Shown: piece after piece, positions 17,809-43,982 of the stretch
Layout: each line of letters starts with the position of its first letter
How positions within the stretch are numbered: the first letter of the stretch is position 1
NCBI GenBank assembly: GCA_020353235.1
Contig: CP070693.1
Span: 410,322-456,371 of the forward strand
From: Dehalococcoidia bacterium
Lineage (GTDB): Bacteria > Chloroflexota > Dehalococcoidia > Dehalococcoidales > JAUYDJ01
Direction: 5' to 3'
Length of the DNA stretch: 46,050 nucleotides
Made by a program: the position numbers and the translations under genes
The notes under the pieces: model-generated
The model's database searches: none
The model's input: the letters and a program-made list of their open reading frames with translations, nothing else
Told to the model about the DNA's origin: nothing

Positions 17809-18720
17809 ATGAGTGCCGAAACGCCGAAAAGAAGAGTCGTCATGCCCTGGATGGTGAAGCGAAAGAGAAAGCCAGCCAAGGAGCGAGATGAGGACCAGAT
17901 AATCAGCGTCACCAATGAGCTTGCGGCAGAGCCCCGTACGCCAACTAAACCACCGGCTGAGTCGGTAGTGAACAAGGCGAAACAGATAGCCGCCCTAGAA
18001 GAGGCTAACGCGGAGGCGGAGAAAATCGTCAGCCAGGCTAAAAAAGAAGCCGAGGAAATGAAGAAGAACGCCGAGGCTAGCGTTAGCGAAGAGGCCAAGG
18101 CAGAAGCAGAGAAAATCGTCAGCCAGGCCAAAAAGGAAGCCGAGGAAATGAAGAAGAACGCCGAGGCCAGCGTTAGCGAAGAGGCCAAGGCAGAAGCAGA
18201 GAAAATCGTCAGCCAAGCCAAGTTGGAAGCCGAGGAAATGAAGAAGAACGCCGAGACTGCCGTTAAAGAGGTGGCAGCCGAAGAGAAGATAGAGACACCA
18301 GCCGAGCCTGAAGAGACAGCGGCTGAAGAGAAGAAAGAAGAGCCGGCGGAGTCACCCCCTCCTGAAAAAGTCACCACTCAAGTGAAGATCAGCGGTGACC
18401 AGACCCTTTATACCGGCGAAATAGAGCTAATCATCGCCTCGCCCGTAGACCCCAAGATGATGGCTGCATTGTTCGCCTACCTGCAAACCACACCGGAGGC
18501 AAAGCTAGTCCATAGTACTGGCTCTCTGGACCGGGGCACCACGATAACGGTGGCGCTAGATAAGCCAGTCCCCATCATTAGCGCTTTATCATCCCGGCTA
18601 CCTGAAGTAGAACCAGTAGTGGAGCGAGGTGACAAGGACATCTCGGCAAAAGGGAAAAAGAGGATGCTCCGAATCAGGCTAGCACCCAAAAAGGCTAGCA
18701 AGGAGGAGAGGAGAAAGTGA
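17809..18720 (+). CDS. Coiled-coil protein with 30-residue tandem repeats, first gene of pilus locus A
   Basis: 303 residues. There is a basic N-terminus, then from about 70 to 157 three near-identical 30-residue repeats beginning AEKIVSQAK and containing EAEEMKKNAEASVSEEAKA, which must form a long charged coiled coil. A Glu/Pro-rich linker runs to about 190, followed by a compact C-terminal domain (VKISGDQTLYTGEIELIIASP to VLRIRLAP-type ending). No membrane segment or signal is seen, so it is probably cytoplasmic. The stop overlaps the pilB start (GTGA). A scaffold role for the pilus assembly ATPase is plausible by position only. I recognise no named family. Confidence 0.75.
   Translation: MSAETPKRRVVMPWMVKRKRKPAKERDEDQIISVTNELAAEPRTPTKPPAESVVNKAKQIAALEEANAEAEKIVSQAKKEAEEMKKNAEASVSEEAKAEAEKIVSQAKKEAEEMKKNAEASVSEEAKAEAEKIVSQAKLEAEEMKKNAETAVKEVAAEEKIETPAEPEETAAEEKKEEPAESPPPEKVTTQVKISGDQTLYTGEIELIIASPVDPKMMAALFAYLQTTPEAKLVHSTGSLDRGTTITVALDKPVPIISALSSRLPEVEPVVERGDKDISAKGKKRMLRIRLAPKKASKEERRK
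18016..18279 (+). repeat. 90-bp tandem repeat within the coiled-coil gene (2.9 copies)
   Basis: The marker GAAAATCGTC recurs at 18021, 18111 and 18201, an exact 90-bp period, with the units nearly identical in DNA. This indicates recent in-frame duplication, and copy number may vary between strains. Confidence 0.9.
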
Positions 18721-20426
18721 AGTCATCGGAGAACAAAATAGCCAAGAAAGAGCTGGGGCAGCTACTGGTTGAAGGCGGGTTGATCAGCGATGAGCAGCTA
18801 TCCCACATCCAAGATCTGCAGCGTAAGAGTGGTGAACGGTTAGAGCAAATCCTGCTCCAACAGCACTTAATCACCAGCCAGCAACTTGCTTTCTTCGTCA
18901 GCCTTCAGATGGGGATTCCCTTCGTCAATCTGAAGAAAGAGGGAGTCGAAGCACAAGCCCTGAAGCTAATTCCAGAAGCAATCGCCCGAAAATACGGCGT
19001 TATCCCGGTACGTATGCTGGATGGTGCTGTCATGGTTGCCATGGAAGACCCGAGGGATATTCACACCATTGAGCAGCTAACTTCCTTAACCATGAAACGG
19101 ATTGAGCCGGTAATCAGCACCTTTCAGGATATCCAGGAGATGATTGACCTCAACTACCGGATTGGTGGTGAGATTGAAGAACAGCTCAGCCAGATTCCGC
19201 TTCGTTATCGAGGCGGCGCCGGGGCGAGAGAGTCACGGGTCTCCGCCGAAACCATTGCTCAAGCCCCGGTGGTACGTGCCATCGACCTGCTTATCAAGCA
19301 GGCGGTAAGAGACCGGGCCTCAGATGTCCACGTTGAGCCCCAGGAGGACAAGCTACGCATCCGCTACCGCATTGATGGTATCTTGAGCGAAGTTATGGCC
19401 CTCCCCTTGAATGTCCACGAGCCGCTGATCTCCAGAGTAAAGATTATGGCCGGGCTCAATATTGCCGAGCGTCGCCGCCCTCAGGACGGTCAAATCACCT
19501 TTGACATGGATGATAGAGAAGTTGACATTCGGGTGGCTACCTCCAATACGGTATATGGGGAAATGTCAGTGCTTCGAATTCTGGACAAAACCTTCGCCTT
19601 TCTGCCCTTAGCCGATATCGGCTTTTTACCCGAGATTCTGAAACGATACACGCAAATGGTAAAGACCCCCTTTGGCATGATTTTAATCAGTGGTCCCACC
19701 GGCTCTGGCAAGACCACCACCCAGTACGCCACGGTCAACCAGCTTGATGCCATCGGACGCAATATTCTCACCATTGAAGACCCGGTAGAGTACCGCTTTA
19801 CCAATATTAATCAAATGCAGGTCAACCCCGCCGCCGGGGTAAGCTTTGCCACCGGACTTAGAGCCTGCATGAGACTTGACCCGGATGTCATTCTGGTCGG
19901 CGAGATACGTGATGCGGAGACGGCTCAGATAGCCACCCAGGCCGCCCTGACCGGCCACTTGGTGCTTTCTTCAGTCCACGCCAATGATGCCGTAGCCACC
20001 ATTTACCGGATGATAGACCTGGGGGTAGAGCCCTTCCTGATTACCTCGGCATTAATCGGCGTGGTCGCCCAGAGAATGGTGCGCAAGGTCTGCCCCTATT
20101 GCTCCGGACCGATGCCGGTCGCCGATGATGAACGGCAAGCCTACGAGAAGGAACTTAAAGAGAAGCGCACTGAATTCATCATCGGCAGCGGTTGCACTTT
20201 CTGTGCCCACACCGGCTTTCAGGGTCGAACTGGCATCTTTGAGGTCCTGACCATGAGCGAGAACCTGGACCGGCTGATCCTGAGCGGTGCCAGCGCTAAT
20301 GAAATTCGCGCCGTCGCCAATGAAGAAGGTATGCTCTCCCTGTGGCATGATGGCATGCTGAAAACAAAAATGGGTATCACCACCCCCAGCGAAGTCATTC
20401 GCAATGTCTTCTCCATAAGCTATTAG
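18717..20426 (+). CDS. pilB: Type IV pilus assembly ATPase PilB (locus A)
   Basis: 569 residues, full length. An N-terminal MshEN-type domain (LGQLLVEGGLISDEQL to about 150) is followed by the T2SE ATPase: VHVEPQEDKLRIRYRIDG, Walker A GPTGSGKTT at 326-334, Asp box ILTIEDPVEYRF, Walker B DPDVILVGEIRD, His box LSSVHANDA, and a tetracysteine zinc site (CPYC, CTFC). It is the cytoplasmic hexameric motor for pilin polymerisation. The GTG start is embedded in the upstream stop codon. The N-terminal fold in some relatives binds cyclic di-GMP, relevant to the GGDEF/HD-GYP protein in this window. Confidence 0.95.
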   Translation: MKSSENKIAKKELGQLLVEGGLISDEQLSHIQDLQRKSGERLEQILLQQHLITSQQLAFFVSLQMGIPFVNLKKEGVEAQALKLIPEAIARKYGVIPVRMLDGAVMVAMEDPRDIHTIEQLTSLTMKRIEPVISTFQDIQEMIDLNYRIGGEIEEQLSQIPLRYRGGAGARESRVSAETIAQAPVVRAIDLLIKQAVRDRASDVHVEPQEDKLRIRYRIDGILSEVMALPLNVHEPLISRVKIMAGLNIAERRRPQDGQITFDMDDREVDIRVATSNTVYGEMSVLRILDKTFAFLPLADIGFLPEILKRYTQMVKTPFGMILISGPTGSGKTTTQYATVNQLDAIGRNILTIEDPVEYRFTNINQMQVNPAAGVSFATGLRACMRLDPDVILVGEIRDAETAQIATQAALTGHLVLSSVHANDAVATIYRMIDLGVEPFLITSALIGVVAQRMVRKVCPYCSGPMPVADDERQAYEKELKEKRTEFIIGSGCTFCAHTGFQGRTGIFEVLTMSENLDRLILSGASANEIRAVANEEGMLSLWHDGMLKTKMGITTPSEVIRNVFSISY

Positions 20427-20435
20427 AGGCTAAAA

Positions 20436-21686
20436 ATGACCAGCAGTATTGAGAGCATTAAAAAGCCAAGAGAGGCAACCTTCCGCTATGAAGCCTATGA
20501 CCGACAGGGGAAACTAGTAAAGGGCAAAGTAAAGGCGCCCAATGAACTGGCTGCGGAGCGGCTTATCGTCGCTAAGGGCTATAACCCAATAGAGGTACAG
20601 GTCGCCCCTTCCATGTTTAGCCTGGAAGAGGCACTGCCGACCTTTTTCAAGGTCAAGCCGCATGATGTCATCGTCTTTTCCCGCCAGCTGGCGACACTGC
20701 TCCGGTCAGGCATCTCCCTGCTACCGGCACTGGAAATTCTTCAGAACCAGGTAGCCGCCAGCCGCGCCTTCAGGAAGGTTCTAGAAGCCATCATTTTAGA
20801 CATCCGTGGTGGAATTTCATTCTCCCAGGCCCTGAGCAAACACCCAAAGGCCTTTAGCGAGATTTACTGCCGGACCATTTCCATTGGCGAACAATCGGGA
20901 GAGCTGGAGGGTGTGCTGAAGCGAATGGCTGACTATCTGGAAAAACAGAACATGCTGGCCAAAAAGATAAGCAGGGCCCTGATCTACCCAGTGATAGTCA
21001 TCGGCGCCGGCGTGGTGGTCATCATAATTCTTCTCACCGTGGTCATGCCTAACCTGCTGGACATATTCATCACCATGAATGTGGAGCTACCCCTGCCCAC
21101 CCGAATCTTAATCGGACTGACCGAATTTGCCACCGGTAACACGCTTTATCTCATCATCAGCGGGGCAATATTGGCGGCGGCGATACTGTGGATGATCAAG
21201 CAGCCGACCGGAAGGCGGATACTTAACCTCATCCAGCTCCGTGCACCGCTAATCGGGACGACGACTCTGATGTCAGAGCTAGGCCGTTTCAGCCGAACGG
21301 TATCGGTACTGATAAGCTCCGGAATGAACCTGCAGGAGATAATGGAGATGGCACCCTACTCCACCAATAATTCTATCTTCCGTAGCGCCTTGGATGAGCT
21401 CAGGGACAAGCTTTACTTAGGTGAGGGACTATCGGCACCGATGTCCCGTATTAACCTGTTCCCACCACTACTCATCCAGATGGTAGCCGTCGGTGAGGAA
21501 AGCAACACCCTTGACTTCACTTTGGGGGTGGTGGCTGATTTCTGTGAATCCACCGCCGACGAAAAGGCAAGCACCATTGTCAGCTTGATAGGCCCACTGG
21601 CTACCATCAGCATTGCCCTGCTAGTTGGTTTTATCGCCATCTCGGTACTAATGCCAATGTATACCCTCACCGGCGCCTTTGGTTAA
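20436..21686 (+). CDS. pilC: Type IV pilus inner-membrane platform protein PilC (locus A)
   Basis: 416 residues with two GspF/T2SF domains (about 70-195 and 275-400) and three or four membrane helices. Typical motifs are FSRQLATLLRSGISLLPALE and its repeat FSRTVSVLISSGMNLQEIME. It couples PilB rotation to pilin extraction from the membrane. It starts 10 bp after pilB. Confidence 0.95.
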   Translation: MTSSIESIKKPREATFRYEAYDRQGKLVKGKVKAPNELAAERLIVAKGYNPIEVQVAPSMFSLEEALPTFFKVKPHDVIVFSRQLATLLRSGISLLPALEILQNQVAASRAFRKVLEAIILDIRGGISFSQALSKHPKAFSEIYCRTISIGEQSGELEGVLKRMADYLEKQNMLAKKISRALIYPVIVIGAGVVVIIILLTVVMPNLLDIFITMNVELPLPTRILIGLTEFATGNTLYLIISGAILAAAILWMIKQPTGRRILNLIQLRAPLIGTTTLMSELGRFSRTVSVLISSGMNLQEIMEMAPYSTNNSIFRSALDELRDKLYLGEGLSAPMSRINLFPPLLIQMVAVGEESNTLDFTLGVVADFCESTADEKASTIVSLIGPLATISIALLVGFIAISVLMPMYTLTGAFG

Positions 21687-21742
21687 TCAAAAGTGATGGT
21701 AGCTAATGAGATAGCAGGCATCTAACTATATTGATAATAACG

Positions 21743-21769
21743 CTTGGTGAGTGTATAGTACTCACCAAG
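21743..21769. terminator. Perfect 10-bp hairpin downstream of pilC
   Basis: CTTGGTGAGT (21743-21752) pairs with ACTCACCAAG (21760-21769) around loop GTATAGT. No T-run follows on either strand, so it may be an RNA-processing or mRNA-stability element within the operon rather than a full terminator. The next gene starts 27 bp later. Confidence 0.45.
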
Positions 21770-21795
21770 TACATCAAAAGACAAGGAGAAAAGGT

Positions 21796-22173
21796 ATGGA
21801 AGAAACCAAAACTCCCGAGGAAGCCACTGATAAAATCGAGGAAATGAAAGCGCTGGCGGCGGCCGGAGCCAGAGTAAAATCCCGAAATGCGCGGTGGGAC
21901 CTTAACTGTGCTATCTTTCTGTTTGCCATCTTAATCCTAGTTATTATCCTGCTCTTTCAAGGCTTTGGCATTGAGTGGGTGGGGCCGATTGCCATCTTCG
22001 GCCTGGCTATGGTCTGGCTGGTGGGGTGGCGGCGGGGGAGACAACTATACTCCTTCTTCTATGATGAGGAACTATCCAGGCTGGAGCGAGAATCACAAAA
22101 GCCGATTGAACAGACGCTAGAGGAAACGGTAGAAGAGAGGGTTCAGAAGGCACTGCGGGACAGGTGGAAATAG
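21796..22173 (+). CDS. Two-helix membrane protein of pilus locus A, function unknown
   Basis: 125 residues from ATG 21796 (AAGGAGAAAAGG upstream); a longer in-frame reading from 21751 would run through the hairpin and is rejected. The acidic N-terminus is followed by two adjacent membrane helices (LNCAIFLFAILILVIILLF and IEWVGPIAIFGLAMVWLVG), then WRRGRQLYSFFYDEEL and a charged helical tail. It lies inside the pilus operon between pilC and the PilO-like gene, so an accessory assembly role is likely. No family is recognised. Confidence 0.7.
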   Translation: MEETKTPEEATDKIEEMKALAAAGARVKSRNARWDLNCAIFLFAILILVIILLFQGFGIEWVGPIAIFGLAMVWLVGWRRGRQLYSFFYDEELSRLERESQKPIEQTLEETVEERVQKALRDRWK

Positions 22174-22232
22174 GCAAAAGGAAGCAGTTCTCCCAGTAAG
22201 TAATAGATACAGCAGCTAGGAAAGACTGAAGA

Positions 22233-23618
22233 ATGGATCGACTAAAAGCTCTGCTACATAGATTTTGGCCAACCGGCTCCCTATTTTTATTTGGTTTCTT
22301 CCTAATTCTCTATGCCGCCATGGGCATCCTTTATTTTCAGCAGAACTCAAAGCAGGACGAACTTCAAGAACGAATCAGCGGAATAAGTATTGTCATTGAC
22401 AAGCCATTACCCTCAGCGGAGAAGTTACAGGCGGAGTACGATGCGGTTAACCAAGCCCTGATTCCATTAGCCGCCGAGGAAGTTCTTGATATCATCGTTA
22501 AACTGGCTGAGGAGAGCGGGATTGATGTCGACCCCGATGTTGGTGAATTTACCATCCCACCACTAAATCCAGCCCAACATAAGAAGGTGGGTGAAGGCGC
22601 CTACCACGTCCTGACCATCAGCAATATCCGGGCGCAGGGTGACTATGATAATGTGATGGCATTAGTCACCAAGCTCGACTCCAAGGAGATACTGAAGACT
22701 ATGGTGCTTACGGACGCCCGTATTAGCCAGTTTGAATTTGCGGGCACCACGGAAGAGGAAACCAGACAGGAGGAATTTTACACTATATTCCTGGCGGTGC
22801 AGGACCTGATGGCGGATAATGACCTGTCCGAGATACCCTATCCGATGGACTTTATCGGTGGCTCGGCTACCCATCAGATGGGCGATGACCCGGATACCAG
22901 GGACAAAATAGAAGGCTTCCCCGATATTACCAGCACCATAGACCAGAAAGGCTATACCGGTGAGGAGTCGCCGCGGAATGGATATGTGCTCTTTGAGCAT
23001 GACAAAATAGATACGGACACGGACAATTTTAATAGAGTCAGCTACTTAGATGAGGATGAGCTGGAAACAGAATACTACTACACCTGTGAGGCTGATGGAA
23101 CCATACGGCAGTTTGACGGTCCCGATGTAACCACCGCCACCGAGTATCCCATCAGTGAGCGGGAAGCGAGACGGAGAGAGCTGTACCTCGTCTCCCAAGC
23201 CGTCGTTAAGATGATGGAGGATAATAATGAAATGAAAGTGATACCCAGCCCGCTGAACTTTATCAGCGGTGTGGCCACTAATTTTATGGGCGATAACCCC
23301 AACACCAAGATAGCCAAAGAAGGCTTCCCCGATATCATCACCACCACCGAAGAAAAAGGCTACACTGGGAACAGATTCCCACGAAATGGATATGTGCTTT
23401 ATGACCACGATAAGACCGTCAGTACTAATACCACCGAGTTTGAAACCATAAGCTATTTCCCCTACCTGAGCACCGAGTACTACTATACCTGCGAGCGGGA
23501 GGGGACGGTACGGCAATTTGACGGTCCAGATGTATTAAACGCAACTGAGTACCTGAACGTTGATACCGTGGCAACTTTGACTGTTGAAATCTATACCACA
23601 CCCCAGGAGAGTGAATAG
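22233..23618 (+). CDS. PilO-like membrane protein carrying two tandem pilin-head-like domains
   Basis: 461 residues. Residues 1-175 look PilO-like: a short cytoplasmic tail, one membrane helix (about 16-36), a helical linker, and a ferredoxin-like domain (AYHVLTISNIRAQGDYDNVMALVTKL). From about 186 to 305 and 321 to 440 come two copies of a 135-residue unit. Matching landmarks are GFPDI (228 and 364), RNGYVL (248 and 384), YYYTC (281 and 416) and RQFDGPDV (292 and 427). The same order of landmarks occurs in the head of the major pilin encoded at 25519-25986 (AVLSMMVDN, SATSDMGAFPDS, GYILYQHE, GTVNQ). PilO normally ends near residue 200, so this is an unusual fusion. It should face the outside of the membrane, next to the PilM-PilN fusion encoded downstream. 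Confidence 0.75.
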   Translation: MDRLKALLHRFWPTGSLFLFGFFLILYAAMGILYFQQNSKQDELQERISGISIVIDKPLPSAEKLQAEYDAVNQALIPLAAEEVLDIIVKLAEESGIDVDPDVGEFTIPPLNPAQHKKVGEGAYHVLTISNIRAQGDYDNVMALVTKLDSKEILKTMVLTDARISQFEFAGTTEEETRQEEFYTIFLAVQDLMADNDLSEIPYPMDFIGGSATHQMGDDPDTRDKIEGFPDITSTIDQKGYTGEESPRNGYVLFEHDKIDTDTDNFNRVSYLDEDELETEYYYTCEADGTIRQFDGPDVTTATEYPISEREARRRELYLVSQAVVKMMEDNNEMKVIPSPLNFISGVATNFMGDNPNTKIAKEGFPDIITTTEEKGYTGNRFPRNGYVLYDHDKTVSTNTTEFETISYFPYLSTEYYYTCEREGTVRQFDGPDVLNATEYLNVDTVATLTVEIYTTPQESE

Positions 23619-23619
23619 C

Positions 23620-25137
23620 ATGGCTAAGGGCCTCTTACAGCTTGATATAAGTACAGCAGGGCAAAGGCTCCAGAAGGCGATAGCCAGGTCCACCAAGAGG
23701 TGGAAAACCGGCGGAGGAGTGGTAACCCTTGACATTGATAGCACCACCATCAGGCTCCTAGAGACCAAGGGAAAAGCAATCAAAACCTGGGCCAGTGCTT
23801 CCCTCGAATCCAGTGAGGTAGCTTCCAAAGAGAAGGCAAGCCGCGAAGCACAACCTATGGGCGTGGTAGTTAAGGAGTTAATGAATTCAAGTGGTATCAA
23901 GGCACGGCATATCACCGCCAGTGTCAGCGGTCTTTATTCGGTAAGCCGCATCGTGCCCACACCAACACCAGCACCGGGGTCAACCATAGAGGAAGCTTTT
24001 GAAGATTTGACCCAGGATACAATACCCCTAGTGGAGGAAAGGCTATATTTTGCCTGGCAAACTATTTCTGCCGGTGAGGGTGAGCCAAATGCCCTTCTCA
24101 TCGGGGTACCCAGAGACACAATTGATAATGAAGTACAGTCTTTGAAGGCGGTTGGCATCAATCCAAGCATACTGGAACTCAAGGCGATCGCCCTAACCAG
24201 GGTAGTCAATAGAGAACAGGCTCTTATCCTCAATACCGAACCGGCCAGCTTTGATATCGTTGTCGTGGTTAACAGTATACCTGAAATCATACGTACTTTA
24301 CCCTGGCAACCGGAAAAACTCACTCCAGAAGAAAAGGCAGAGCATCTGGCGATGACCGTAGAGCTGACGGTAGACTTTCATAATGCCCGCCATCCGAATA
24401 CCCCTCTCAACCCAAAGATCCCCCTCTTCATTACCGGGCAGATACCTGATGAAGCTATCTCGAGAGATAAACTAGAAGCAAAGTCAGGCTACCTCATTGA
24501 GCCGCTGGCACCACCCCTGGAATACCCCACCGAATTCCCTGTCTCTCAATATGCGGTCAACATCGGACTTGCCCTAAGGCAAGTTACGCTGTCTGAAGAT
24601 CGCCGAAATGAGGGGCTTTTACCACTTGATATTAATCTCCTGCCCAGAATCTACCGCCCCTGGCGACCCTCTGCCAAGCAAGTATACACCGTTACTTCGT
24701 TGATTGCGGCTACTGTCATGCTATTACCGATATATCAAGTTACCTCCGACACTATGTTGAAAACGACTCAGTTGGAATCTAAGTTTGATTTATTTAATAA
24801 ACAGCTGGAACAGAGGAAGCTCGAAATTGCCCAGCGCGAACCACTGCAAAAGGCCATTAACAACTATAATACCATTGTCAATATGGGCGGTAGCTTTACC
24901 GAAGACTTAGCGCTGATTCAGGACGAAGCTGATAAGCTTGGTGTTCAGGTGCAGGATGTCGCTCACCAAGGCGACAAAATAAGCATTACCTGTAAGGCCG
25001 ACAGTTACCTCATCTTTAGAAATTACCTCACCGCTCTGGAGGAAAGCGGGCGATTTTTAACCCCCATCCCACCCCCTGAGGGCTACCCCTACACCAAAGC
25101 CGGTGAAATCATTGTTGATACCAAGACTGGTGAGTGA
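23620..25137 (+). CDS. Fused PilM-PilN type IV pilus alignment protein (locus A)
   Basis: 505 residues from ATG 23620, which has CAGGAGAG upstream and follows the previous stop by 1 bp; a longer reading from 23584 would overlap that gene. The N-terminal 320 residues resemble the actin-like PilM (VVTLDIDSTTIRLLETKG, ITASVSGLYSVSRIVPTP, ALILNTEPASFDIVVVV). A DINLLPRIYRP motif, the PilN signature, is followed by one membrane helix (about 365-385) and a PilN-like extracytoplasmic domain with a coiled coil. In most bacteria these are two proteins. The fusion is repeated in locus B, so it is a lineage feature. It links PilB/PilC to PilO. Confidence 0.85.
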   Translation: MAKGLLQLDISTAGQRLQKAIARSTKRWKTGGGVVTLDIDSTTIRLLETKGKAIKTWASASLESSEVASKEKASREAQPMGVVVKELMNSSGIKARHITASVSGLYSVSRIVPTPTPAPGSTIEEAFEDLTQDTIPLVEERLYFAWQTISAGEGEPNALLIGVPRDTIDNEVQSLKAVGINPSILELKAIALTRVVNREQALILNTEPASFDIVVVVNSIPEIIRTLPWQPEKLTPEEKAEHLAMTVELTVDFHNARHPNTPLNPKIPLFITGQIPDEAISRDKLEAKSGYLIEPLAPPLEYPTEFPVSQYAVNIGLALRQVTLSEDRRNEGLLPLDINLLPRIYRPWRPSAKQVYTVTSLIAATVMLLPIYQVTSDTMLKTTQLESKFDLFNKQLEQRKLEIAQREPLQKAINNYNTIVNMGGSFTEDLALIQDEADKLGVQVQDVAHQGDKISITCKADSYLIFRNYLTALEESGRFLTPIPPPEGYPYTKAGEIIVDTKTGE

Positions 25138-25155
25138 TAGGGCTACTTCTAACAA

Positions 25156-25344
25156 TCAGAGGCGACCCACTACCTTTAGGTTATAAAGTTCAATAAAACC
25201 ACATTGCGGGCAGTAATACAGCGAAACGGGAAGCCTCGCCGATTCTGAAGAGCTTGGCACTCCCCTCCTAGAGAGTTCAAAGGCGCCTTCTCCCGATCTT
25301 AATGGCACCTTACAGTGAGGACAGGTTTTAGCCAGATAATCCAT
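25156..25344 (-). CDS. Small zinc-ribbon protein
   Basis: 62 residues with two CxxC pairs: CPHCKVPLRSGEG near residue 9 and YYCPQCGFIELYNL near residue 44. This matches short zinc ribbons of uncharacterised nucleic-acid-binding type. The ATG is preceded by AGTAGGGAG. It lies convergent to the pilus operon, between it and the pilin gene; no functional link is evident. Confidence 0.65.
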   Translation of the reverse strand: MDYLAKTCPHCKVPLRSGEGAFELSRRGVPSSSESARLPVSLYYCPQCGFIELYNLKVVGRL

Positions 25345-25400
25345 AAATTTACTCCCTACTACTACCTCTTTAATCCTTGCGTTTAGCTAACCAAAACAGA

Positions 25401-25431
25401 GCAGGTGCCCTGTTATCTCCCGGACACCTGC
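25401..25431 (-). terminator. Terminator downstream of the pilin gene
   Basis: On the minus strand GCAGGTG-T-CC pairs with GG-G-CACCTGC (arms 25401-25410 and 25422-25431, one mismatch), followed by TCTGTTTTGG. It lies about 90 bp beyond the pilin stop. Confidence 0.6.
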
Positions 25432-25518
25432 CTTTAGACTCCACCTCCCCCCCATCGCTACCCCACTCAATTAACATTTTAACTCAGATACTGCTGAAAG
25501 CACTCAACCTAAGGACTA

Positions 25519-25986
25519 TTAGTAGCCGGTGGTCGTCTGGTTCACCGTTCCAGCCGAGTTAACCGTGTAGGTACCTTTGGTGGTCGAGGTGGCAACATAG
25601 TTGACCAGCTGGACATCATCAAGGGTGCCATTACCATCAGAATCATAGGCTATCTCGTGTTGATAGAGTATGTAGCCTGCCTTGGTTCCGCCGTAAGTAG
25701 ACGTGCCCTTAGCCGTAGCATTGGTCGTTGAATCCGGGAAAGCACCCATATCACTGGTGGCACTGCCCACTGGATTGGGCAACGTACTGAGTCCGTTATC
25801 CACCATCATAGACAATACCGCTGACTGGATGTTCTCCAGCTCGGTAGCTGCTGCCTCGGTTTCACCCCGGCCAATGAACCGGCCTACATTGGGGATAACT
25901 ATCGCTGCCAGTACACCCAGAATGGCAACCACAATCAAAAGCTCAATCAGGGTAAAACCTTTCTCCCCTCGTTTAGGCATTCTCAT
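25519..25986 (-). CDS. pilA: Major type IV pilin
   Basis: 155 residues. The class III signal is MRMPKRGEKG with cleavage before F11, giving mature FTLIELLIVVAILGVLAAIVIP with Glu at +5. After the N-terminal helix the head shows AVLSMMVDNGL, SATSDMGAFPDS, GYILYQHEIAYDSDGNGTLDD and GTVNQTT. The DSDGNGTLDD loop looks like a calcium-binding site. No disulfide loop is present. The Shine-Dalgarno sequence AAAGGAGGT is very strong, fitting an abundant product. It is convergent to the locus A operon with its own promoter and terminator. Confidence 0.93.
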   Translation of the reverse strand: MRMPKRGEKGFTLIELLIVVAILGVLAAIVIPNVGRFIGRGETEAAATELENIQSAVLSMMVDNGLSTLPNPVGSATSDMGAFPDSTTNATAKGTSTYGGTKAGYILYQHEIAYDSDGNGTLDDVQLVNYVATSTTKGTYTVNSAGTVNQTTTGY

Positions 25987-26182: not shown

Positions 26183-26851
26183 TTAGTCTTTATTTGGAAC
26201 CAGCCCCTTCTTAGCCGCGTAAGCCGCCGCCTGACTCCGGTTGGCCAGGTGTAGCTTCTCCATAATACTCTTCAGGTGGGTCTTTACCGTGTTCTCAGAG
26301 ATAAACAGGGCGTCAGCGATTTCCCGATTGGTCGCCCCCTGCGCTATCTGGCGCAGCACTTCATCCTCCCGCGGGCTCAGGTCAGCTTCAGCTTCCCTGC
26401 TCGGTCCCTTTTTCACTCCGGCGCTGAGTGCCTTGAACTCAGTAAGCAGCTTGGCCGCCATCAGGGGTGAAATTATCACTTCACCCTGGGCAATATGAAT
26501 GATGGCGTGAATTAGCTCTTCTGGCTCCGCTTTCTTCAGTAGGTAGCCGCGGGCACCATATTTTACGGCGGCGAGTAGGTCAGCTTCCGTCTCCGAAACA
26601 GTCAGGACCAGAACATTAACCTGGGGCATCTCGGTCTGGATGGCTTGAATTGCTTCCAGCCCACTGCAGCGTGGCATACTAAGGTCCATCAGAACCACAT
26701 CCGGGACGATTTGTTCCGCTTTTTCAATCGCCTCCAGCCCATCAGCCGCCTCCCCAACTACCTTCAGGCTTTTTTCATTACTTAAGACACTGGCGATGCC
26801 ACGGCGGAACAGGCTATGGTCATCCACAATCAGCACTCTAACCGCTTCCAC
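26183..26851 (-). CDS. NarL/FixJ-family response regulator
   Basis: 222 residues. The receiver has an intact acidic pair D10-D11 in VLIVDDHSLFRRG, the phosphoacceptor D56 (VVLMDLSMP), Thr in VLVLTVSE, and Lys in YLLKKAEP. The LuxR-type HTH occupies about 160-215 (LSPREDEVLRQIAQGATNRE, VKTHLKSIMEKL). It starts 1 bp after the upstream kinase gene, so the two form a two-component pair. Its position next to the pilin promoter makes pilus control plausible; this is inference. Confidence 0.93.
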   Translation of the reverse strand: MEAVRVLIVDDHSLFRRGIASVLSNEKSLKVVGEAADGLEAIEKAEQIVPDVVLMDLSMPRCSGLEAIQAIQTEMPQVNVLVLTVSETEADLLAAVKYGARGYLLKKAEPEELIHAIIHIAQGEVIISPLMAAKLLTEFKALSAGVKKGPSREAEADLSPREDEVLRQIAQGATNREIADALFISENTVKTHLKSIMEKLHLANRSQAAAYAAKKGLVPNKD

Positions 26852-26852
26852 T

Positions 26853-28028
26853 TCACAGCCTCACTTTCTCCAGAGGCAGGGTAACTTTCAGCTCCGTCCC
26901 CTTCTGAGGAGTAGAGGTAATCTCCAGACTACCACCCAGCCCCTCCGCCCTCTCCTTGATGATGGCCAGCCCGTGGTAGCCGGGCGGGGCTTTTTCCAAG
27001 TCGGACAGGACGAAGCCCTGCCCGTTGTCTTTGATTTTCATTATCACCGTCTCACGGGTATTCTCCAGCTTAAACCCTACCTCACTGGCCAGGGCGTGTC
27101 GCCTGACATTGGTCAGCGCCTCCTGGGCGATGCGCAGTAACTGCAGTTCCGCCACCGGGGAAAGGTTGGGAAAGCCCTTGGTGGTTTTAAACTGAACCTT
27201 GATGCCATTATTGCTGCCGAATTCACTGGTATAGCTGGACAGGGCGGGTATTATGGGCAGATTTTTTATCTCAGCGCTCAACTGGTCAATGGATTCCCGG
27301 ATATCCTCATAGGTATCCTGCACTATTTTCCTGACATCGCCCAGCTCGTTAAGCGCTTTCACGGTCTCTTGGGAAGTAACCAAATCACTTACCTGCTTGG
27401 TCTTCAGATTGAGGTAACCGAGTGACTGGGCAACGCCATCGTGTATCTCTCGGGCAATTCGGCGGCGCTCCTGAATAATTGCCTCTCTCTCGATACGCCG
27501 ACGTATGTTCAGGTTAATGCGATAAGGCACCACCGCCGCCACAAAACAGAAAAGGGTGTAGACAATGAGCAGGGTGAGGTTATGCCCCTGCATAATCCAG
27601 GCAATTGTCTTCAAATACGGGCTCAGTACCAGGTGAGTGATGGAGAGGGAGAAGGAGGCAACGGCGGCCAGAGAGAGGGAGATTGACTCCTCAAAGAGAA
27701 GGGCGGCAGTCATAATGGGTGTAAGCGAATAGAGCAGGAAGCTACTGTTCAGTCCATTGGTGGCGATAACGAGAGAGATGCAGAGCACAAAATCCCCGAT
27801 TAGAATCAGATAGGTCATCGGGGTCCTCTCCCGCCAGCGCAGAGGAGAGAAAACCTTTAAAATAGTATAAACGCCCAGTATAGCCAGGACTATGTAGAGC
27901 TGAAACTCGGTTATTGCCGGTCTACTGAGTGCCGGCACCACCTGGGTGAACATACCCGCCAGAGCGTAAGACAAAAAACGATAGGCAGCCAGAAACTGGT
28001 AGGCTTCTTTTTCATAAGTGCTCGGCAT
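26853..28028 (-). CDS. NarX/DesK-type membrane sensor histidine kinase
   Basis: 391 residues. About five or six membrane helices (15-170) form a compact sensor with little extracytoplasmic sequence. The HisKA_3 dimerisation helix has RRIAREIHDGVAQSLGYLN with phosphoacceptor His196, followed by a HATPase_c domain (LLRIAQEALTNVRRHA, IKDNGQGF, GLAIIKERAEGLGGSL). It should phosphorylate the regulator encoded next to it. GGAGAAAG precedes the ATG. Confidence 0.93.
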   Translation of the reverse strand: MPSTYEKEAYQFLAAYRFLSYALAGMFTQVVPALSRPAITEFQLYIVLAILGVYTILKVFSPLRWRERTPMTYLILIGDFVLCISLVIATNGLNSSFLLYSLTPIMTAALLFEESISLSLAAVASFSLSITHLVLSPYLKTIAWIMQGHNLTLLIVYTLFCFVAAVVPYRINLNIRRRIEREAIIQERRRIAREIHDGVAQSLGYLNLKTKQVSDLVTSQETVKALNELGDVRKIVQDTYEDIRESIDQLSAEIKNLPIIPALSSYTSEFGSNNGIKVQFKTTKGFPNLSPVAELQLLRIAQEALTNVRRHALASEVGFKLENTRETVIMKIKDNGQGFVLSDLEKAPPGYHGLAIIKERAEGLGGSLEITSTPQKGTELKVTLPLEKVRL

Positions 28029-36960: not shown

Positions 36961-37752
36961 TTAAAAGAACAGCCCCAGATACCAGTTGATAATATCACTG
37001 CTCCAGAGCAGTATGGCAATAGTGCCTACTGAGAGGAAGGGGCCGAAGGGGATAGCCTCCCGCCACCGCCTTACTTTGAGCAAGAGCAGAACTCCCGCCA
37101 CCAGCCCGCCCAGAATTATACCGATAAGCAAAGCGAAAAGCACCAGCCCCGAGCCGACCACCAGACCAATAAGGCCAGCCATCTTAATATCCCCCCACCC
37201 CATTCCCTCGGGGTAAATTAAAGCGGGCAGCAAAAAGAAGATGAGGCCGATAGCCCCGCCGGTAATGCTATTGACCAATCCGAACCAGGGCCAGGGTAAA
37301 GCGAGGTCAACAATGCCCGACGGGGGATAAAAGGCACTGATTATCAGCGCCACCACCACCGCCGGGTAGACTATCTTGTTCAGGATAAGCCCGTGCTCCA
37401 GGTCAATGACGGCGAGCACGATAAAGAGACAGCAGTAAAAGATGATAACGGCCAAATCAATACTCAGACCGTAATACCAGTAACCAAAAGCAAATAGACC
37501 AGCGCTGCCCAGCTCCACCCAGAAGGGGCGGCGGGGGAGGAGGGCCTGACAGTAGCGGCAGCGGCGGCGCAGCCACAGGTAGCTGAATATCGGCACGAGG
37601 TCGCTTACCGCTAGCGGGTGCTGGCAGCTATCACAGTGAGAGGTGGGACGGAGCAGTGAGCGGTCGGTAGGCAGACGGTCCATGCAGACATTGAGGAAAC
37701 TGCCCACTGCCGAACCGAGTATAAAAAAAAGTATAACTAACGCAACTTCCAC
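36961..37752 (-). CDS. pilD: Prepilin peptidase / methyltransferase PilD
   Basis: 263 residues, normal length. The N-terminal zinc-binding methyltransferase domain has C40-x2-C43 and C65-x2-C68. The aspartyl protease residues are D117 (AVIDLEHGLILN) and D188 (GWGDIKMAG). There are about seven membrane helices. It cleaves and N-methylates the pilins, and is the only such enzyme in the window, so it should serve both pilus loci. The start is GTG 37752 with a weak ribosome-binding site, 83 bp after the pilT stop. Confidence 0.95.
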   Translation of the reverse strand: MEVALVILFFILGSAVGSFLNVCMDRLPTDRSLLRPTSHCDSCQHPLAVSDLVPIFSYLWLRRRCRYCQALLPRRPFWVELGSAGLFAFGYWYYGLSIDLAVIIFYCCLFIVLAVIDLEHGLILNKIVYPAVVVALIISAFYPPSGIVDLALPWPWFGLVNSITGGAIGLIFFLLPALIYPEGMGWGDIKMAGLIGLVVGSGLVLFALLIGIILGGLVAGVLLLLKVRRWREAIPFGPFLSVGTIAILLWSSDIINWYLGLFF

Positions 37753-37835
37753 TGGCTACATTTTGCCTGCTGTTGTCCAGCCCGTCAATAGGGGTAAATA
37801 ACAAACCGGGTGATTTAGCCAGGGAGTAAGGGTAA

Positions 37836-38906
37836 CTACGCCTGAGGTACTTTGCCCACCAGCTTGACCACTTCCTCCGGGTCATTACCGAAGGCGAGCA
37901 GCGTTTCACGGCTGATTACTTTCTCCCGGTAGAGCTTGACCAGGGCGTGGTCGAGCAAGACCATCCCCAGCCGCGCCTGTGTCAGAATGGTGGTCGGTAA
38001 TTGATGAATCCTGCCCTCGCGGATGGTATTTCTCACCGCCGGGCTGGCCAGCATTACCTCAACCGCCGCCACCCGCCCCGAACCATCGGCTTTGGGGACA
38101 AGCACCTGGCACAGGACCGCCAGCAGCAGCGAAGCCAGCCGCGACTGGGCCAGGTGACGCTCGTGAGGCGGAAACAGGTCTATTATCCGTTCCACCGCCT
38201 GGGGGGCGGCCGGGGCATGGCCGGTGGTCAGTACCAGATGACCGGTCTCGGCGATGGTAAGCACCGCCGCCGCCGTCTCCAAGTCCCTCATCTCACCGAC
38301 CAGGATAACATCCGGATCCTGCCGCAAAACATGCTTTAGCGCCCCGGCAAAAGAGAGGGTATCACTGCCCAGCTCCCGCTGGGTTATGGTGCACCCCAGA
38401 TTGGCATAGACATACTCAATGGGGTCTTCCACGGTGACCACACGGCGTTTCTGGCTGCTGTTGAGATGGTTGACCATTGCCGCCAGCGTGGTCGTTTTGC
38501 CGCTCCCGGTGGGGCCGCTAACCACCACCAGACCGCGGGGCTTGAGAATCAGCTCCTTGCATATTTCAGGCAATCCCAGTTCATCAATATCGGGAAGCTG
38601 GAGGGGCACGATGCGGATGGTGAGGCTAATCGTGCCGCGCTGATGAGCCGCGTTACAGCGGAGCCGGCAGACATGGGGAATGGTGTAGCCAAAATCAAGC
38701 TCAAGACAGCGCTCAAAGTCAGCCCTTTCCCGGTCCGAGGTCAGTTGGTGGAAAGCCTGAGCAATATCATCTGCCGTCAGCGGTGGCATATCGTCTAGCG
38801 GGCTAAGCTCACCATTGATGCGCAGCAGCGGCGGGTTGTCGGCAATGAGGTGCAAGTCAGAAGCAAACCGGGTTCCCGCCAGATTAATCAACGAGGAAAT
38901 GTCCAT
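37836..38906 (-). CDS. pilT: Pilus retraction ATPase PilT
   Basis: 356 residues. SDLHLIADNPPLLRINGEL is the PilT N-terminal signature. Walker A is GPTGSGKTT at 131-139, the Asp box VVTVEDPIEY, Walker B DPDVILVGEMRD, and the retraction motif near the C-terminus AVRNTIREGRIHQLP (AIRNLIRE in other PilTs). The His box reads HLVLTTGHAPAAPQAVERIID in place of the usual GTLHTTSA. The ATG overlaps the PilM-PilN stop by 1 bp (TAATG). It powers pilus retraction and twitching. Confidence 0.93.
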   Translation of the reverse strand: MDISSLINLAGTRFASDLHLIADNPPLLRINGELSPLDDMPPLTADDIAQAFHQLTSDRERADFERCLELDFGYTIPHVCRLRCNAAHQRGTISLTIRIVPLQLPDIDELGLPEICKELILKPRGLVVVSGPTGSGKTTTLAAMVNHLNSSQKRRVVTVEDPIEYVYANLGCTITQRELGSDTLSFAGALKHVLRQDPDVILVGEMRDLETAAAVLTIAETGHLVLTTGHAPAAPQAVERIIDLFPPHERHLAQSRLASLLLAVLCQVLVPKADGSGRVAAVEVMLASPAVRNTIREGRIHQLPTTILTQARLGMVLLDHALVKLYREKVISRETLLAFGNDPEEVVKLVGKVPQA

Positions 38907-40366
38907 TATTCGCCTCCGCCCGTCCTGAGCACCAGGGTGAAGTCCATCCCCCCACTGGCAACCCTCCTGATATGGGAGACAATAATCTCGGCAAAGCGAC
39001 CGCTGTTATCCAGACTGCTTAAATAGGCCAGTATCTCGGCTTCGCCGGGGGAACTGCCATTCAGGGTCAGGGTCTGGCTGGCATGGGTGATACTGGTCAA
39101 ATTGGCAGTGCTCGGCAGACAGCTGACGGCTAATCCCAGATCACCGTTAATGCCATTGTTCTGCCTCTCCAGACTGTCCATAGCTACCGTGAAGTTAGCC
39201 TGGGATGCTTCCGCCACCGCCAGTTCCGCCTCCAGCGCGGCAACATCAGCCGCTAGCCCCTCTCGCTGCGACAGCCTCTGCTGAGTCATCTGGTTGGTGT
39301 TATCTATTTTGGCCCGCGTTACGGCAATATCAACTGATGTTTCCTGGATGAACATTACCAGGGGAATGAGCAGACCGATAAAAAGGGCGGCACTAGGCAG
39401 AGCCAAGACCCTGGTCAGCGAAATAGGCTTGGGCCGGTAATCCTCAGGCAGAACATTCAAATCGGCTACGGCAAGCCCGGTTTCCCTTACCAGAGGCAGT
39501 TCTTTCAACACCATACCAATGTTAATTAGATAACGCCCCGACGGCATTGACTCGGGACACTCCAGCGGTGATGACAGTGGCAAGACCGGATGGCCCAGCT
39601 CGTCGGACAGAGCTTGGCACGGCTCCGACTCATCAGCCAACTCTCCGGTGACGAAAATAGTGACACTGCCGTCAAGCGGCTTCTCCTGATTATTAGAATT
39701 ATAGAACTTGATGGTTCTATCCAGCTCTTTCTTTATCATCGGCAGCTTATCCGGTAAAGACACCGCTTCAGCGGGGAAGGGCACGGTGCGGATGGGCTGG
39801 GGAATCCCTTCCGCCATAATCACAATGTCAAATTCAGTTGACTGGACGTCAACGATGATGGCCGTCCCTTCGCTGACCACTCGCGCCAGAGCCAGCGGCT
39901 TCAGGTCCATGAACTCTACCTTCAACCCGGCCTGCTGCACCGTCTTGACCAGGGCATCAGCCGTTTTACGGGGCACCGCCACCATAAAGACCTCGGTCTT
40001 GTCCTCGGCGGTCAGGGTAGTCTGCCAGGAAATATAAAGCTGCTCCGGGGGCACCGGCAGTACACTCCTCGCCTCCCGTACCACCGCCTCAGCCAGCATC
40101 GCCTTGGGTAACGGGGGCAAGGCAACCGGCCGGGTCAAACAGTGAAGCCCGCTCAAGCCAAGGATGACCTTCTTTGTTTTCATCCTCTGGGCTTTGAGGA
40201 GCTGCTTAATCTTGGTGGCAACCTCTGCCTTTTTGATGACGACGTTGTTCTGCACCATCTCCGGCTCCAGAGGCGCCTCCGCCCACTTTCTCACCTGCTG
40301 ACCGCGGGTAACCATCAGCCGGAGACTAGCGTCGTCAATATATAGCGTAAGCAACTTCTCTGCCAT
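38906..40366 (-). CDS. Fused PilM-PilN alignment protein (locus B)
   Basis: 486 residues from ATG 40366 (a GTG at 40375 is the alternative; CAGGG suits the ATG). The N-terminal PilM-like part has LTLYIDDASLRLMVTRG, VILGLSGLHCLTRPVALP and IIVDVQSTEFDIVIM. Then the PilN signature ADLNVLPEDYRP is followed by a membrane helix near 325-345, a coiled coil (AADVAALEAELAVAEASQ), and a PilN-type domain. It follows the PilO stop by 1 bp. The same fusion occurs in locus A with only moderate similarity, so the two loci are old duplicates. Confidence 0.85.
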   Translation of the reverse strand: MAEKLLTLYIDDASLRLMVTRGQQVRKWAEAPLEPEMVQNNVVIKKAEVATKIKQLLKAQRMKTKKVILGLSGLHCLTRPVALPPLPKAMLAEAVVREARSVLPVPPEQLYISWQTTLTAEDKTEVFMVAVPRKTADALVKTVQQAGLKVEFMDLKPLALARVVSEGTAIIVDVQSTEFDIVIMAEGIPQPIRTVPFPAEAVSLPDKLPMIKKELDRTIKFYNSNNQEKPLDGSVTIFVTGELADESEPCQALSDELGHPVLPLSSPLECPESMPSGRYLINIGMVLKELPLVRETGLAVADLNVLPEDYRPKPISLTRVLALPSAALFIGLLIPLVMFIQETSVDIAVTRAKIDNTNQMTQQRLSQREGLAADVAALEAELAVAEASQANFTVAMDSLERQNNGINGDLGLAVSCLPSTANLTSITHASQTLTLNGSSPGEAEILAYLSSLDNSGRFAEIIVSHIRRVASGGMDFTLVLRTGGGE

Positions 40367-40367
40367 C

Positions 40368-40925
40368 TTAGTCACCCTGATAACTGTAAACCACCAGCGT
40401 CAGGCTGGCGGTTGAGTTCTCGCCGTTAGGCGTTGGCGGGACATTAATTGCCACCGACCTGACCACACCGGTGATCAGATCATTGTTGAGCCTGACCACA
40501 AAATTAACGATATCAGATAAATCTCCCTCCACCCGACCAGTAAAGGATAGCGCCGAGCAGGTAACCCCCTCCAGCTCTTCCGCCGCCAGGCCGGTGGAGC
40601 TTAACTCAGTTATGGTCACATCATAGGTGGCCGCAATATCAAACAGGGTATCGCTGACGGCAGTGCTGGTAACTGTCTGCGAAAGGGCTGCCTTGGCATC
40701 CTCAGACTCAGTTATGATTTCATTCAGCTGCTCCTCCAGCCCGGCCCGCTGCTGGGAAAGTGGCTCAAGCTGAACGACGTTCAGCTTCTGCTGGGCCAGC
40801 TTGAGCTCATCCTCCAGATGGCTCTGCTGGTCAAGCCGCTGGTACAAAACCACGCCCAGGCTGGCGAAGACGATAACAAACACACCAACCGTCAGCAGTA
40901 TCCAGCTCGTTTTAGTCAGCTTCAA
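40368..40925 (-). CDS. pilO: PilO-like alignment protein (locus B)
   Basis: 185 residues, normal length. It has a cytoplasmic stub, one membrane helix (WILLTVGVFVIVFASLGVVLY), a coiled coil (HLEDELKLAQQKLNVVQLE), then a ferredoxin-like domain (ALSFTGRVEGDLSDIVNFVVRLNND). Unlike its locus A counterpart it has no pilin-head repeats. Confidence 0.75.
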   Translation of the reverse strand: MKLTKTSWILLTVGVFVIVFASLGVVLYQRLDQQSHLEDELKLAQQKLNVVQLEPLSQQRAGLEEQLNEIITESEDAKAALSQTVTSTAVSDTLFDIAATYDVTITELSSTGLAAEELEGVTCSALSFTGRVEGDLSDIVNFVVRLNNDLITGVVRSVAINVPPTPNGENSTASLTLVVYSYQGD

Positions 40926-40946
40926 TGCCAGCTCCTGTATCTTTAA

Positions 40947-41801
40947 CTATTTTGATATCAACCAAGAGGTGATATAGGTTGTTACCTCGCTTATCATTAC
41001 CTCAGCCACTATTCGGGCGGTAATTTTGCCATCTCCGGGGCGTATTGCCGTCGCCGTGATTCGATATGAGGTGCCCGTAATCTCGCCCACCGCCCCGATA
41101 TCCTCCCGGTCGGCTACCACCCAGGTGTAATCACCCTCCAGGTCTCCGCTTCCGGTGATATAAAAGGTCTGGGTCTTTACTGGCTCACCTTCGGAAACAC
41201 TAGGGGCAGGGGTGCCCAATTCCCAGTTGAACAGGTAAGCCCCCAAGGTATCCAGCGTCTCATCCGGCTCATCGGTGGACAGGTTGCCGGCAAAGCCAGC
41301 CGCCGACCCCGATTGATAGCTATAACCCAACGGAAGTCTGAGGCCGACCTCTTCCAGGTGTATCACCGGTATCCCCGAGTCAGGCTCCCAGACAACGGTA
41401 ATAACATATTTATAAGCCCCTTCTTCATCATCCCAGGTTATCTCCCCGTCAACACTCAGGTATTCATTGTGTTCACCGGGGCTGATGAACTCACCCAGAT
41501 AGAAGGTATAGTCCCCCTTATCTTCGGTCTGGATGGCGACCGCCTGCTGGTTAATATTTTCCGTCAGCTGCTCGGGCAGCGAAGTACCCTCCCCCAGACA
41601 CCACAGCGCCTTTTCCACGCCGGCATCAGCGGCATAAATCCCGTGCACGTTTTCCTGAAGAATGCGGCCAAAATTAAGGCTGGTGCTGGCATGACTGAGG
41701 GTGGGGGCAATGGTCAGCCCGCCCAAAGCGAGCAGAGCCAGAACGGTCGGTAGGGCCTGCCCTTTCTCATTTCTTATTATTTGCCTTAAAAAGCTCAGCA
41801 T
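40947..41801 (-). CDS. PilX-like pilus assembly protein with pilin-type N-terminus
   Basis: 284 residues. IIRNEKGQALPTVLALLALGGLTIAPTLSHAS looks like a PilX/GspK-type N-terminal helix: a G before the hydrophobic stretch but no Glu at +5. GIYAADAGVEKALWCLG is the typical following motif of PilX_N proteins. The large beta-rich remainder (GDYTFYLGEF, YKYVITVVWEPDSGIPVIHLEEVG, YRITATAIRPGDGKITARIV) is unassigned. It is likely a pilus tip or priming subunit with the two minor pilins encoded upstream. Confidence 0.75.
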   Translation of the reverse strand: MLSFLRQIIRNEKGQALPTVLALLALGGLTIAPTLSHASTSLNFGRILQENVHGIYAADAGVEKALWCLGEGTSLPEQLTENINQQAVAIQTEDKGDYTFYLGEFISPGEHNEYLSVDGEITWDDEEGAYKYVITVVWEPDSGIPVIHLEEVGLRLPLGYSYQSGSAAGFAGNLSTDEPDETLDTLGAYLFNWELGTPAPSVSEGEPVKTQTFYITGSGDLEGDYTWVVADREDIGAVGEITGTSYRITATAIRPGDGKITARIVAEVMISEVTTYITSWLISK

Positions 41802-41815
41802 TGTTCCCTCATCAG

Positions 41816-42346
41816 CTAAAAGTTGGGACGGCGGCTAATCTGGTACTCTCTTGTCTCCCTTGACTCCCCCGAGAGCGCTGTTATCTGAAGCGTCAGCACC
41901 GGGTTCTGATAACTGGCTTCACTGGTATAATCAAGGTCGGTCGGATCATAATAGATATGTCGGGCGACCAGCGTCTGCTCGTTGACGCCAGCGCTGCTCC
42001 AGTGGCTCCGCTTCAGCTTGCCGATGCCGCCGCTCAGGTCTTCCCAAAAGTAGGTCGCCGAATGATAGACCGGGTTATCTTCAGCATCCCACTCCGTCCA
42101 GTTCAGGACCAGAAAGTCAGGTGATGTCAGGTTTTCCGTGGTTATACTCTGCGCCATCTGGGCATCATGGCTAATCCAGTAAGCGGCATTCTGCACCTGG
42201 TTCAACGCGGTCATATACTCGCTATTGCGCTCGGTGCACTTGAAAACCTGAAATGTGGCTGCCGTGGCCGCGCCACTTACCAGCGCCATAATGGTGATAG
42301 CCACCACTAGCTCAATAATAGTCGCGCCTCTCTCACCTCGTCTCAT
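41816..42346 (-). CDS. Minor pilin, PilW/GspJ-like
   Basis: 176 residues. The short leader MRRGERG is cut before A8, giving mature ATIIELVVAITIMALVSGAA with Glu at +5. The head contains ALNQVQNAAYWISHDAQMAQ, the common PilW/GspJ pattern, then beta strands. It overlaps the preceding minor pilin gene by 4 bp (ATGA). Confidence 0.85.
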   Translation of the reverse strand: MRRGERGATIIELVVAITIMALVSGAATAATFQVFKCTERNSEYMTALNQVQNAAYWISHDAQMAQSITTENLTSPDFLVLNWTEWDAEDNPVYHSATYFWEDLSGGIGKLKRSHWSSAGVNEQTLVARHIYYDPTDLDYTSEASYQNPVLTLQITALSGESRETREYQISRRPNF

Positions 42347-42738
42347 CGGTCCACCTTGTAACCTTCCAGTTCCATTACCACTTCCCCCAGACGCCTGACG
42401 GTAACCGTTATCTTCTGAATACCGTCATCGGGGGTATGCAAAGGCTCAGCGGTGATGTTCGCCGAATAACCGGTATAGTCCAGGCCGGCTGGTATTGGTG
42501 CCGGGGAATACCCGCTGGCTTCATAGACATAGTCAGCCCCTTTGACCCACTCCAACTGACTCTGCGCCAGACTCTCCACGGTAGTCTGCTCATCGGCGAT
42601 GAGCACGGCTTTAGAGCTGATCGCCAGACCGCTCAGAAAGACGATGGCAATCGTGCCCAGAACAGCCAGCGCTACTGCTGTCTCAACCAGAGTCATCCCT
42701 GACTCAGTCGGTAGCAATTTGCCCGGTTTGCTCTTCAT
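42343..42738 (-). CDS. Minor pilin, PilV/GspI-like
   Basis: 131 residues. The leader ends TESG, cut before M15, giving mature MTLVETAVALAVLGTIAIVFL with Glu at +5. LAQSQLEWVKGADY is typical of PilV/GspI heads. It overlaps the PilC stop by 1 bp (TGATG). With the PilW-like and PilX-like products it should form the tip complex. Confidence 0.85.
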   Translation of the reverse strand: MKSKPGKLLPTESGMTLVETAVALAVLGTIAIVFLSGLAISSKAVLIADEQTTVESLAQSQLEWVKGADYVYEASGYSPAPIPAGLDYTGYSANITAEPLHTPDDGIQKITVTVRRLGEVVMELEGYKVDR

Positions 42739-43946: not shown

Positions 43947-43982
43947 TTCACTCCCGGGGGCTCTTCAGGCAGTAACCGGTGG

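Follow-up and report, generated by a model that had tools for sequence, protein, structure and literature searches.

One gene in the window (the whole stretch of 46,050 nucleotides analysed here, from a single-contig genome of 1.12 Mb that is 95% complete) encodes a protein that we describe, with high confidence, as a PilO-like variant carrying pilin-derived heads. In studied systems, PilO forms a dimer with PilN and belongs to a ring at the pilus base; in the 461-residue protein considered here, the sequence alignments place two pilin heads, one after the other, as an insertion in the last beta-hairpin, between the final two strands of the PilO ferredoxin-like core. In a literature search of incomplete coverage, no description of a pilin head within PilO turned up, and the arrangement, which is real, is apparently an undescribed variant of the pilus machine. 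How did such a head come to sit there, and what might it be doing?

The gene belongs to a type IV pilus cluster, locus A (17809-25986), in which the pilin gene (25519-25986) is convergent with the rest. The genes in their order, with the parts of the PilO-like protein, are these:

17809..18720, plus strand: coiled-coil protein, first gene of locus A (open reading frame; similar genes in relatives).
18717..20426, plus strand: PilB extension ATPase (T2SSE, 1.1e-121).
20436..21686, plus strand: PilC platform protein (T2SSF, 1.3e-55).
21751..22173, plus strand: small two-TM protein (open reading frame; neighbour of pilO in every A-type locus seen).
22233..23618, plus strand: PilO-like protein with two inserted pilin-head modules, 461 aa (open reading frame; relatives).
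22233..22742, plus strand: PilO core, comprising membrane helix, coiled coil and ferredoxin-like domain to strand 157-168 (alignments; Foldseek).
22272..22343, plus strand: single N-terminal membrane helix, about residues 14-37 (hydropathy peak; AF2 helix 2-55).
22743..23150, plus strand: pilin-head module 1, residues 171-306 (module profile; AF2 pLDDT 93, pTM 0.87; hhalign).
23151..23555, plus strand: pilin-head module 2, residues ~306/307-441 (module profile; second copy in the window genome only).
23556..23615, plus strand: final PilO-core beta strand, after the insertion (alignment to the closing strand of moduleless PilOs; AF2 strand 443-455).
23620..25137, plus strand: PilM-PilN fusion (PilM_2, 5.9e-8).
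25519..25986, minus strand: pilin of locus A, same family as the module source (N_methyl, 1.3e-9; head alignment).

The small two-TM protein has a charged C-terminal helix and lies directly before pilO in all A-type loci seen; a family search gave no match for it. Beside the pilin gene stand a NarL-type response regulator and a membrane histidine kinase (26183-28028), a pair that also adjoins the pilin in relatives G117, G100, G028, G141, G090 and G136. A second type IV pilus locus in the window (locus B, 36961-45503) encodes a prepilin peptidase, PilT-like and PilB ATPases, PilC and PilM-PilN, together with a conventional PilO of 185 residues (40368-40925) and minor pilins of its own; no major pilin was found nearby. 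A search of the genome for a secretin found none.

Is the host protein really a PilO? It is laid out as a PilO-like part (residues 1-170), module 1, module 2 and a last strand (442-461). Like P. aeruginosa PilO and Akkermansia Amuc_1100, it has a short cytoplasmic tail, one membrane helix, a coiled coil and a ferredoxin-like core, and it resembles members of the PilO family (PF04350) in gene context as well, with a single N-terminal membrane helix and a gene adjoining the PilM-PilN fusion. An earlier sequence-only reading of this DNA had taken the N-terminal part to be PilO-like, and Foldseek bears this out, the best matches being P. aeruginosa PilO 2rjz (prob 0.96, E 0.11), 5uvr and the PilO-like Amuc_1100; these E-values are weak because the AF2 model of the full-length protein is poor: its pLDDT is 61, most of module 2 falls under 50, and it does not serve to place the modules. 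The protein differs from PilO in having pilin heads in its last hairpin and in a sequence too distant for the Pfam profile: PF04350 gave no match in the genome at E 0.1, nor in the aligned PilOs at E 1. That profile also misses the conventional PilO of locus B, so it falls short of reach here, and we use the name "PilO-like." Pfam and NCBIfam gave no family for either the module or the PilO part, and PDB sequence profiles returned nothing relevant for them.

The place of the insertion is given by the strand that follows it. Short moduleless PilOs have a final strand such as ATLDVDLY, and in the alignment the same strand stands after the module in the module-bearing PilOs; in the window protein it is TVATLTVEIY, at residues 443-455. 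The statement that a normal PilO ends near residue 200 had overlooked this strand, and because it comes after the repeats, they are an internal insertion and not a C-terminal extension. The insertion point is identical in all 15 module-bearing genomes in the PilO alignment, and in the full-length AF2 model (weak, as noted) strands 157-168 and 443-455 flank the insert.

The same reading had recognised two repeats in this open reading frame, and its coordinates and landmarks (GFPDI, RNGYVL, YYYTC and RQFDGPDV) are all correct, as are the repeats themselves; their bounds, given as 186-305 and 321-440, are really 171-306 and about 306-441, each repeat opening with a helix. The two copies are 54% identical in amino acids and 65% in nucleotides, with a local score of 379 against a shuffle maximum of 60, and this divergence, together with the score, points to an old duplication rather than an assembly artefact. 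Their resemblance to the head of the locus A pilin, which had been noticed by eye, is upheld by scores of 126 and 120 (shuffles average about 30, with maxima of 55 and 54), whereas the PilO core, used as a control, scores 25 against the same head, which is its own shuffle mean. The whole protein finds the pilin of its own genome by tblastn at 1.4e-5 and pilins of relatives down to 1.8e-8. A profile-profile comparison with pilin heads, which had been suggested as a check, was highly significant: hhalign aligned a profile of 17 modules with one of 13 pilin heads at probability 99.9 and E=2.1e-31. Judged by these comparisons of sequence, both the repeat and the homology to pilin are well beyond chance.

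What has been inserted is a pilin head minus its membrane helix, corresponding to pilin residues 39-155, which is close to the soluble truncated pilin that crystallographers make. The PilO-like protein has no N_methyl match, and the prepilin signal and N-terminal methylation that mark a type IV pilin were not found in it; the modules are pilin-derived heads, not pilins. The AF2 model of module 1, built with 30 relatives (pLDDT 93, pTM 0.87), shows a helix of 22 residues, then a long loop together with a small sheet, and this predicted order of helix plus strands is compatible with a pilin head. Foldseek of the module model against the PDB gave no pilin among its matches (best E 4.3). The test by profile and fold on which the sequence-only reading had staked its claim thus comes out divided: the profile match to the pilin head is there, but a match of the confident module model to solved pilin structures is not. 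The pilin assignment accordingly rests on sequence homology to the pilins of the same organisms, and the head type is remote from solved pilins.

How widespread is the arrangement? When 156 genomes of the order Dehalococcoidales were searched with a profile, 14 in addition to that of the window proved to encode a single-module PilO (316-350 aa), and 4 a moduleless short PilO of the same type (G139, with 188 aa, and G028, G019 and G015, with 192-194); two modules in one PilO were seen in the window only. The named module-bearing relatives are Dehalococcoidales, Dehalococcoidia and Chloroflexi MAGs. Among 393 genomes of the class, no module-bearing PilO turned up outside the order, the matches there being pilins and a few other fusions; the module was not found outside the class among the phylum genomes sampled, and phages and viral contigs gave no match.

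On a tree of heads, 15 of the 16 PilO modules fall in one clade (98/94), and the G090 module stands apart, with a single origin not rejected (AU p 0.064). A machinery tree built on PilO core, PilC, PilMN and PilB tells a different story: the module bearers as one clade are rejected (AU p 1.6e-23), and at least three changes are needed. A single gain followed by strictly vertical inheritance is therefore rejected, even though the modules form essentially one clade, and losses, transfers or a second gain must have occurred. Pilins of several families in the class carry this type of head (e.g., L082, L084 and L093); because such pilins span the class while PilO modules stay within the order, the donor was likely a pilin, with the direction of transfer from pilin to PilO.

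The head has travelled elsewhere too, and by its sequence matches it behaves as a portable domain in Dehalococcoidia. G015, a genome with a moduleless PilO, encodes a fusion of a TIR_2 domain (E 3.5e-13) to the same kind of pilin-head module (L009:1288-2130, the same as L046:10010-10852, JACQON010000021.1), without an obvious signal peptide and 8 kb from the G015 pilin. On the tree, the PilO modules are the sister group of this module, which ends in the same residues as the pilin (SDAAMTTEYTD); the fusion might serve as a sensor with a pilin decoy as its base. Putative lipoproteins ending in a pilin head are encoded at L083:1090-1875, L085:1474-2262 and L089:1486-2100, two with a preceding NTF2-like or similar domain (MecA_N, 2e-4, in L085) and one with a TSP3 repeat (1.6e-6), and L094 holds a further short pilin-head fusion. 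A putative lipoprotein in G141 (L131:4079-4894), lying beside an apparent pilin fragment, joins PilN-like and PilO-like core segments and is putatively another chimera of pilus parts.

Once inside PilO, the head has been retained and remodelled under selection. Mean identity between genomes is 56% for the module and 45% for the PilO core, with the module higher in 102 of 105 genome pairs, which argues against a neutral passenger. The positions conserved in modules and pilins alike (A, V, M, M, N, P, FPD, G, L, Y, H, D, Y, YT, G-T and Q) look, from the alignment, like a shared core. The helix has changed: pilin-invariant residues on its polar, exposed side (E44, T48, N52 and Q54) are replaced in the modules, where R178 is conserved in all 15 rows and R179 in 14 of them. 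Absent from pilins, a new conserved set is found in the modules (YTG, P247, YY281-282 of YYY, R292 of RQFDG, FDG294-296 and E304). In pilus filaments generally, it is this polar side that would lie against adjoining subunits, and from the loss of the exposed residues together with the gain of the new set, we infer that the module gave up filament packing and probably gained another contact. Module distances follow those of PilC (r 0.85) and the PilO core (r 0.89); against pilin distances, r is 0.09 and the partial correlation -0.26, so that no module-pilin co-evolution is seen in what is a low-power comparison of seven genomes.

An enlarged PilO with an extra domain is known from a bacterium with one membrane, namely the PilO (formerly PilH) of Streptococcus sanguinis, and enlarged PilOs of monoderms have been proposed to play a second part connected with the wall or envelope (PMC6916266). 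The likeness to our protein, drawn here by description, is that of a PilO with an extra part (PMC6916266); the difference is that only the N-terminal portion of S. sanguinis PilO is PilO-like, with the rest unassigned, whereas the extra part in the window protein is a pilin head inside the PilO core. The modular pilins PilB and PilC of S. sanguinis, in which foreign domains are grafted onto pilins (PMC10191384), likewise show grafting between pilins and other domains. There, the direction is the reverse of ours, in which a pilin head is grafted onto a machine part.

What, then, would the heads do? We propose, tentatively and as a joint claim about identity and role, that the assembly platform has taken over a non-polymerising pilin head for use as an adaptor, or collar. 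Such a head would no longer be able to enter the filament, because it has neither the membrane helix nor the conserved exposed residues of the pilin helix. In studied systems of other bacteria, PilN and PilO form a ring at the machine base (PMC6916266), and by analogy one or two heads per PilO would be displayed outside the membrane at the base of the pilus, making a fixed collar round its exit. The adaptor might hold together the platform of a cell without a secretin, and set the pilins or the base of the pilus in position. The module is not essential to this type of machine, since four relatives have otherwise similar loci without it.

The main rivals of the adaptor or collar are direct docking of pilins and a pure spacer. 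Under the former, which had also been put forward in the sequence-only reading, the head on PilO is a fixed pseudo-subunit that makes pilin-pilin contacts with the base of the pilus or with the head of an arriving pilin and so lowers the barrier to each addition. The homology of the module to its cognate pilin and its encoding in the pilus operon speak for this, and P. aeruginosa TfpY offers a precedent: in the part of the account available to us, it is an accessory protein, undetected in the pilus, that likely binds pilins and for which a part in priming assembly is proposed (PMC11841053). TfpY is thus like our module in being a proposed helper outside the filament and unlike it in being a separate protein, for which that part of the account claims no PilO or pilin homology (PMC11841053). 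Docking or templating through the packing helix is weakened, however, by the replacement of the very exposed residues that pilins keep invariant and by module distances that do not track those of the pilin (over the seven genomes compared); docking by another face is conceivable, and we consider the docking model as a whole unlikely. Nor are we much inclined to the spacer, in which the heads are rigid beads that extend PilO through an S-layer or wall and guide or anchor the machine in cells that lack an outer membrane. The missing secretin, the wall-related role proposed for enlarged monoderm PilOs (PMC6916266) and a module copy number ranging from one to two all fit; yet a pure spacer has no need of a strongly conserved new surface, and moduleless relatives exist. 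It is very improbable that the insertion is a functionless accident, in which a piece of a pilin entered a tolerant loop of PilO by recombination. The fusions of the same head to other proteins (TIR, lipoproteins), which suggest that capture by recombination is recurrent, and the losses implied on the machinery tree would suit an accident, but across genera and families the module has changed less than the domain that hosts it, and it has many near-invariant positions.

There is also the minor-pilin substitute, which the earlier reading had raised on the ground that locus A has no minor pilins; here the heads on PilO would do the priming of the pilus that minor pilins otherwise do. The premise holds for the locus, where no minor pilin lies between pilC and the small TM gene (a linked V/W/X-like triad occupies that position in G015, G028, G117, G138, G141, G090 and G136). 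It does not hold for the genome: an orthologous V/W/X triad, not linked to locus A, is encoded some 145 kb away (G000:C1:578209-580544, or L129:5209-7544), its V and W 41-43% and its X 37-43% identical to those of the linked triads of G015 and G138. Once this triad was found, the substitute idea lost its main premise and was rejected. Related X-like genes are also found away from the locus in other relatives without a linked triad, with strong matches in G098, G056 and G109 and weak ones in G100, G099 and G102, and five relatives have both linked triad and module. The module is indeed present in all seven loci without a linked triad, as against five of the nine with one, but the association is not significant (Fisher p 0.088) and there are no informative independent pairs. 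A priming minor pilin is a processed prepilin built into the pilus; the module has no prepilin signal and is fused inside PilO. For the window, we regard the substitute role as largely refuted, with hardly any chance of being right. As a separate observation, one X-like minor pilin in G117 (L047:2896-5961), 1021 residues long, carries a CBM96 carbohydrate-binding module (1.6e-18) and is likely a tip adhesin.

A bolder form of the collar, and to our minds a rather improbable one, is that the ring of PilO-borne heads makes a permanent false layer of the pilus, at which the filament docks with each subunit addition, the second copy in the window protein making a second layer. If this were true, pilus assembly would be templated by a fixed mimic of pilin.

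More widely, the protein shows that a pilin head is transferable as a domain by itself, a traffic opposite to the grafting already known, in which pilins receive foreign domains. A pilin head held in PilO under selection is a natural experiment on the contacts that PilO makes at the base of the pilus, and similar loci with zero, one and two modules make the question of those contacts directly testable.
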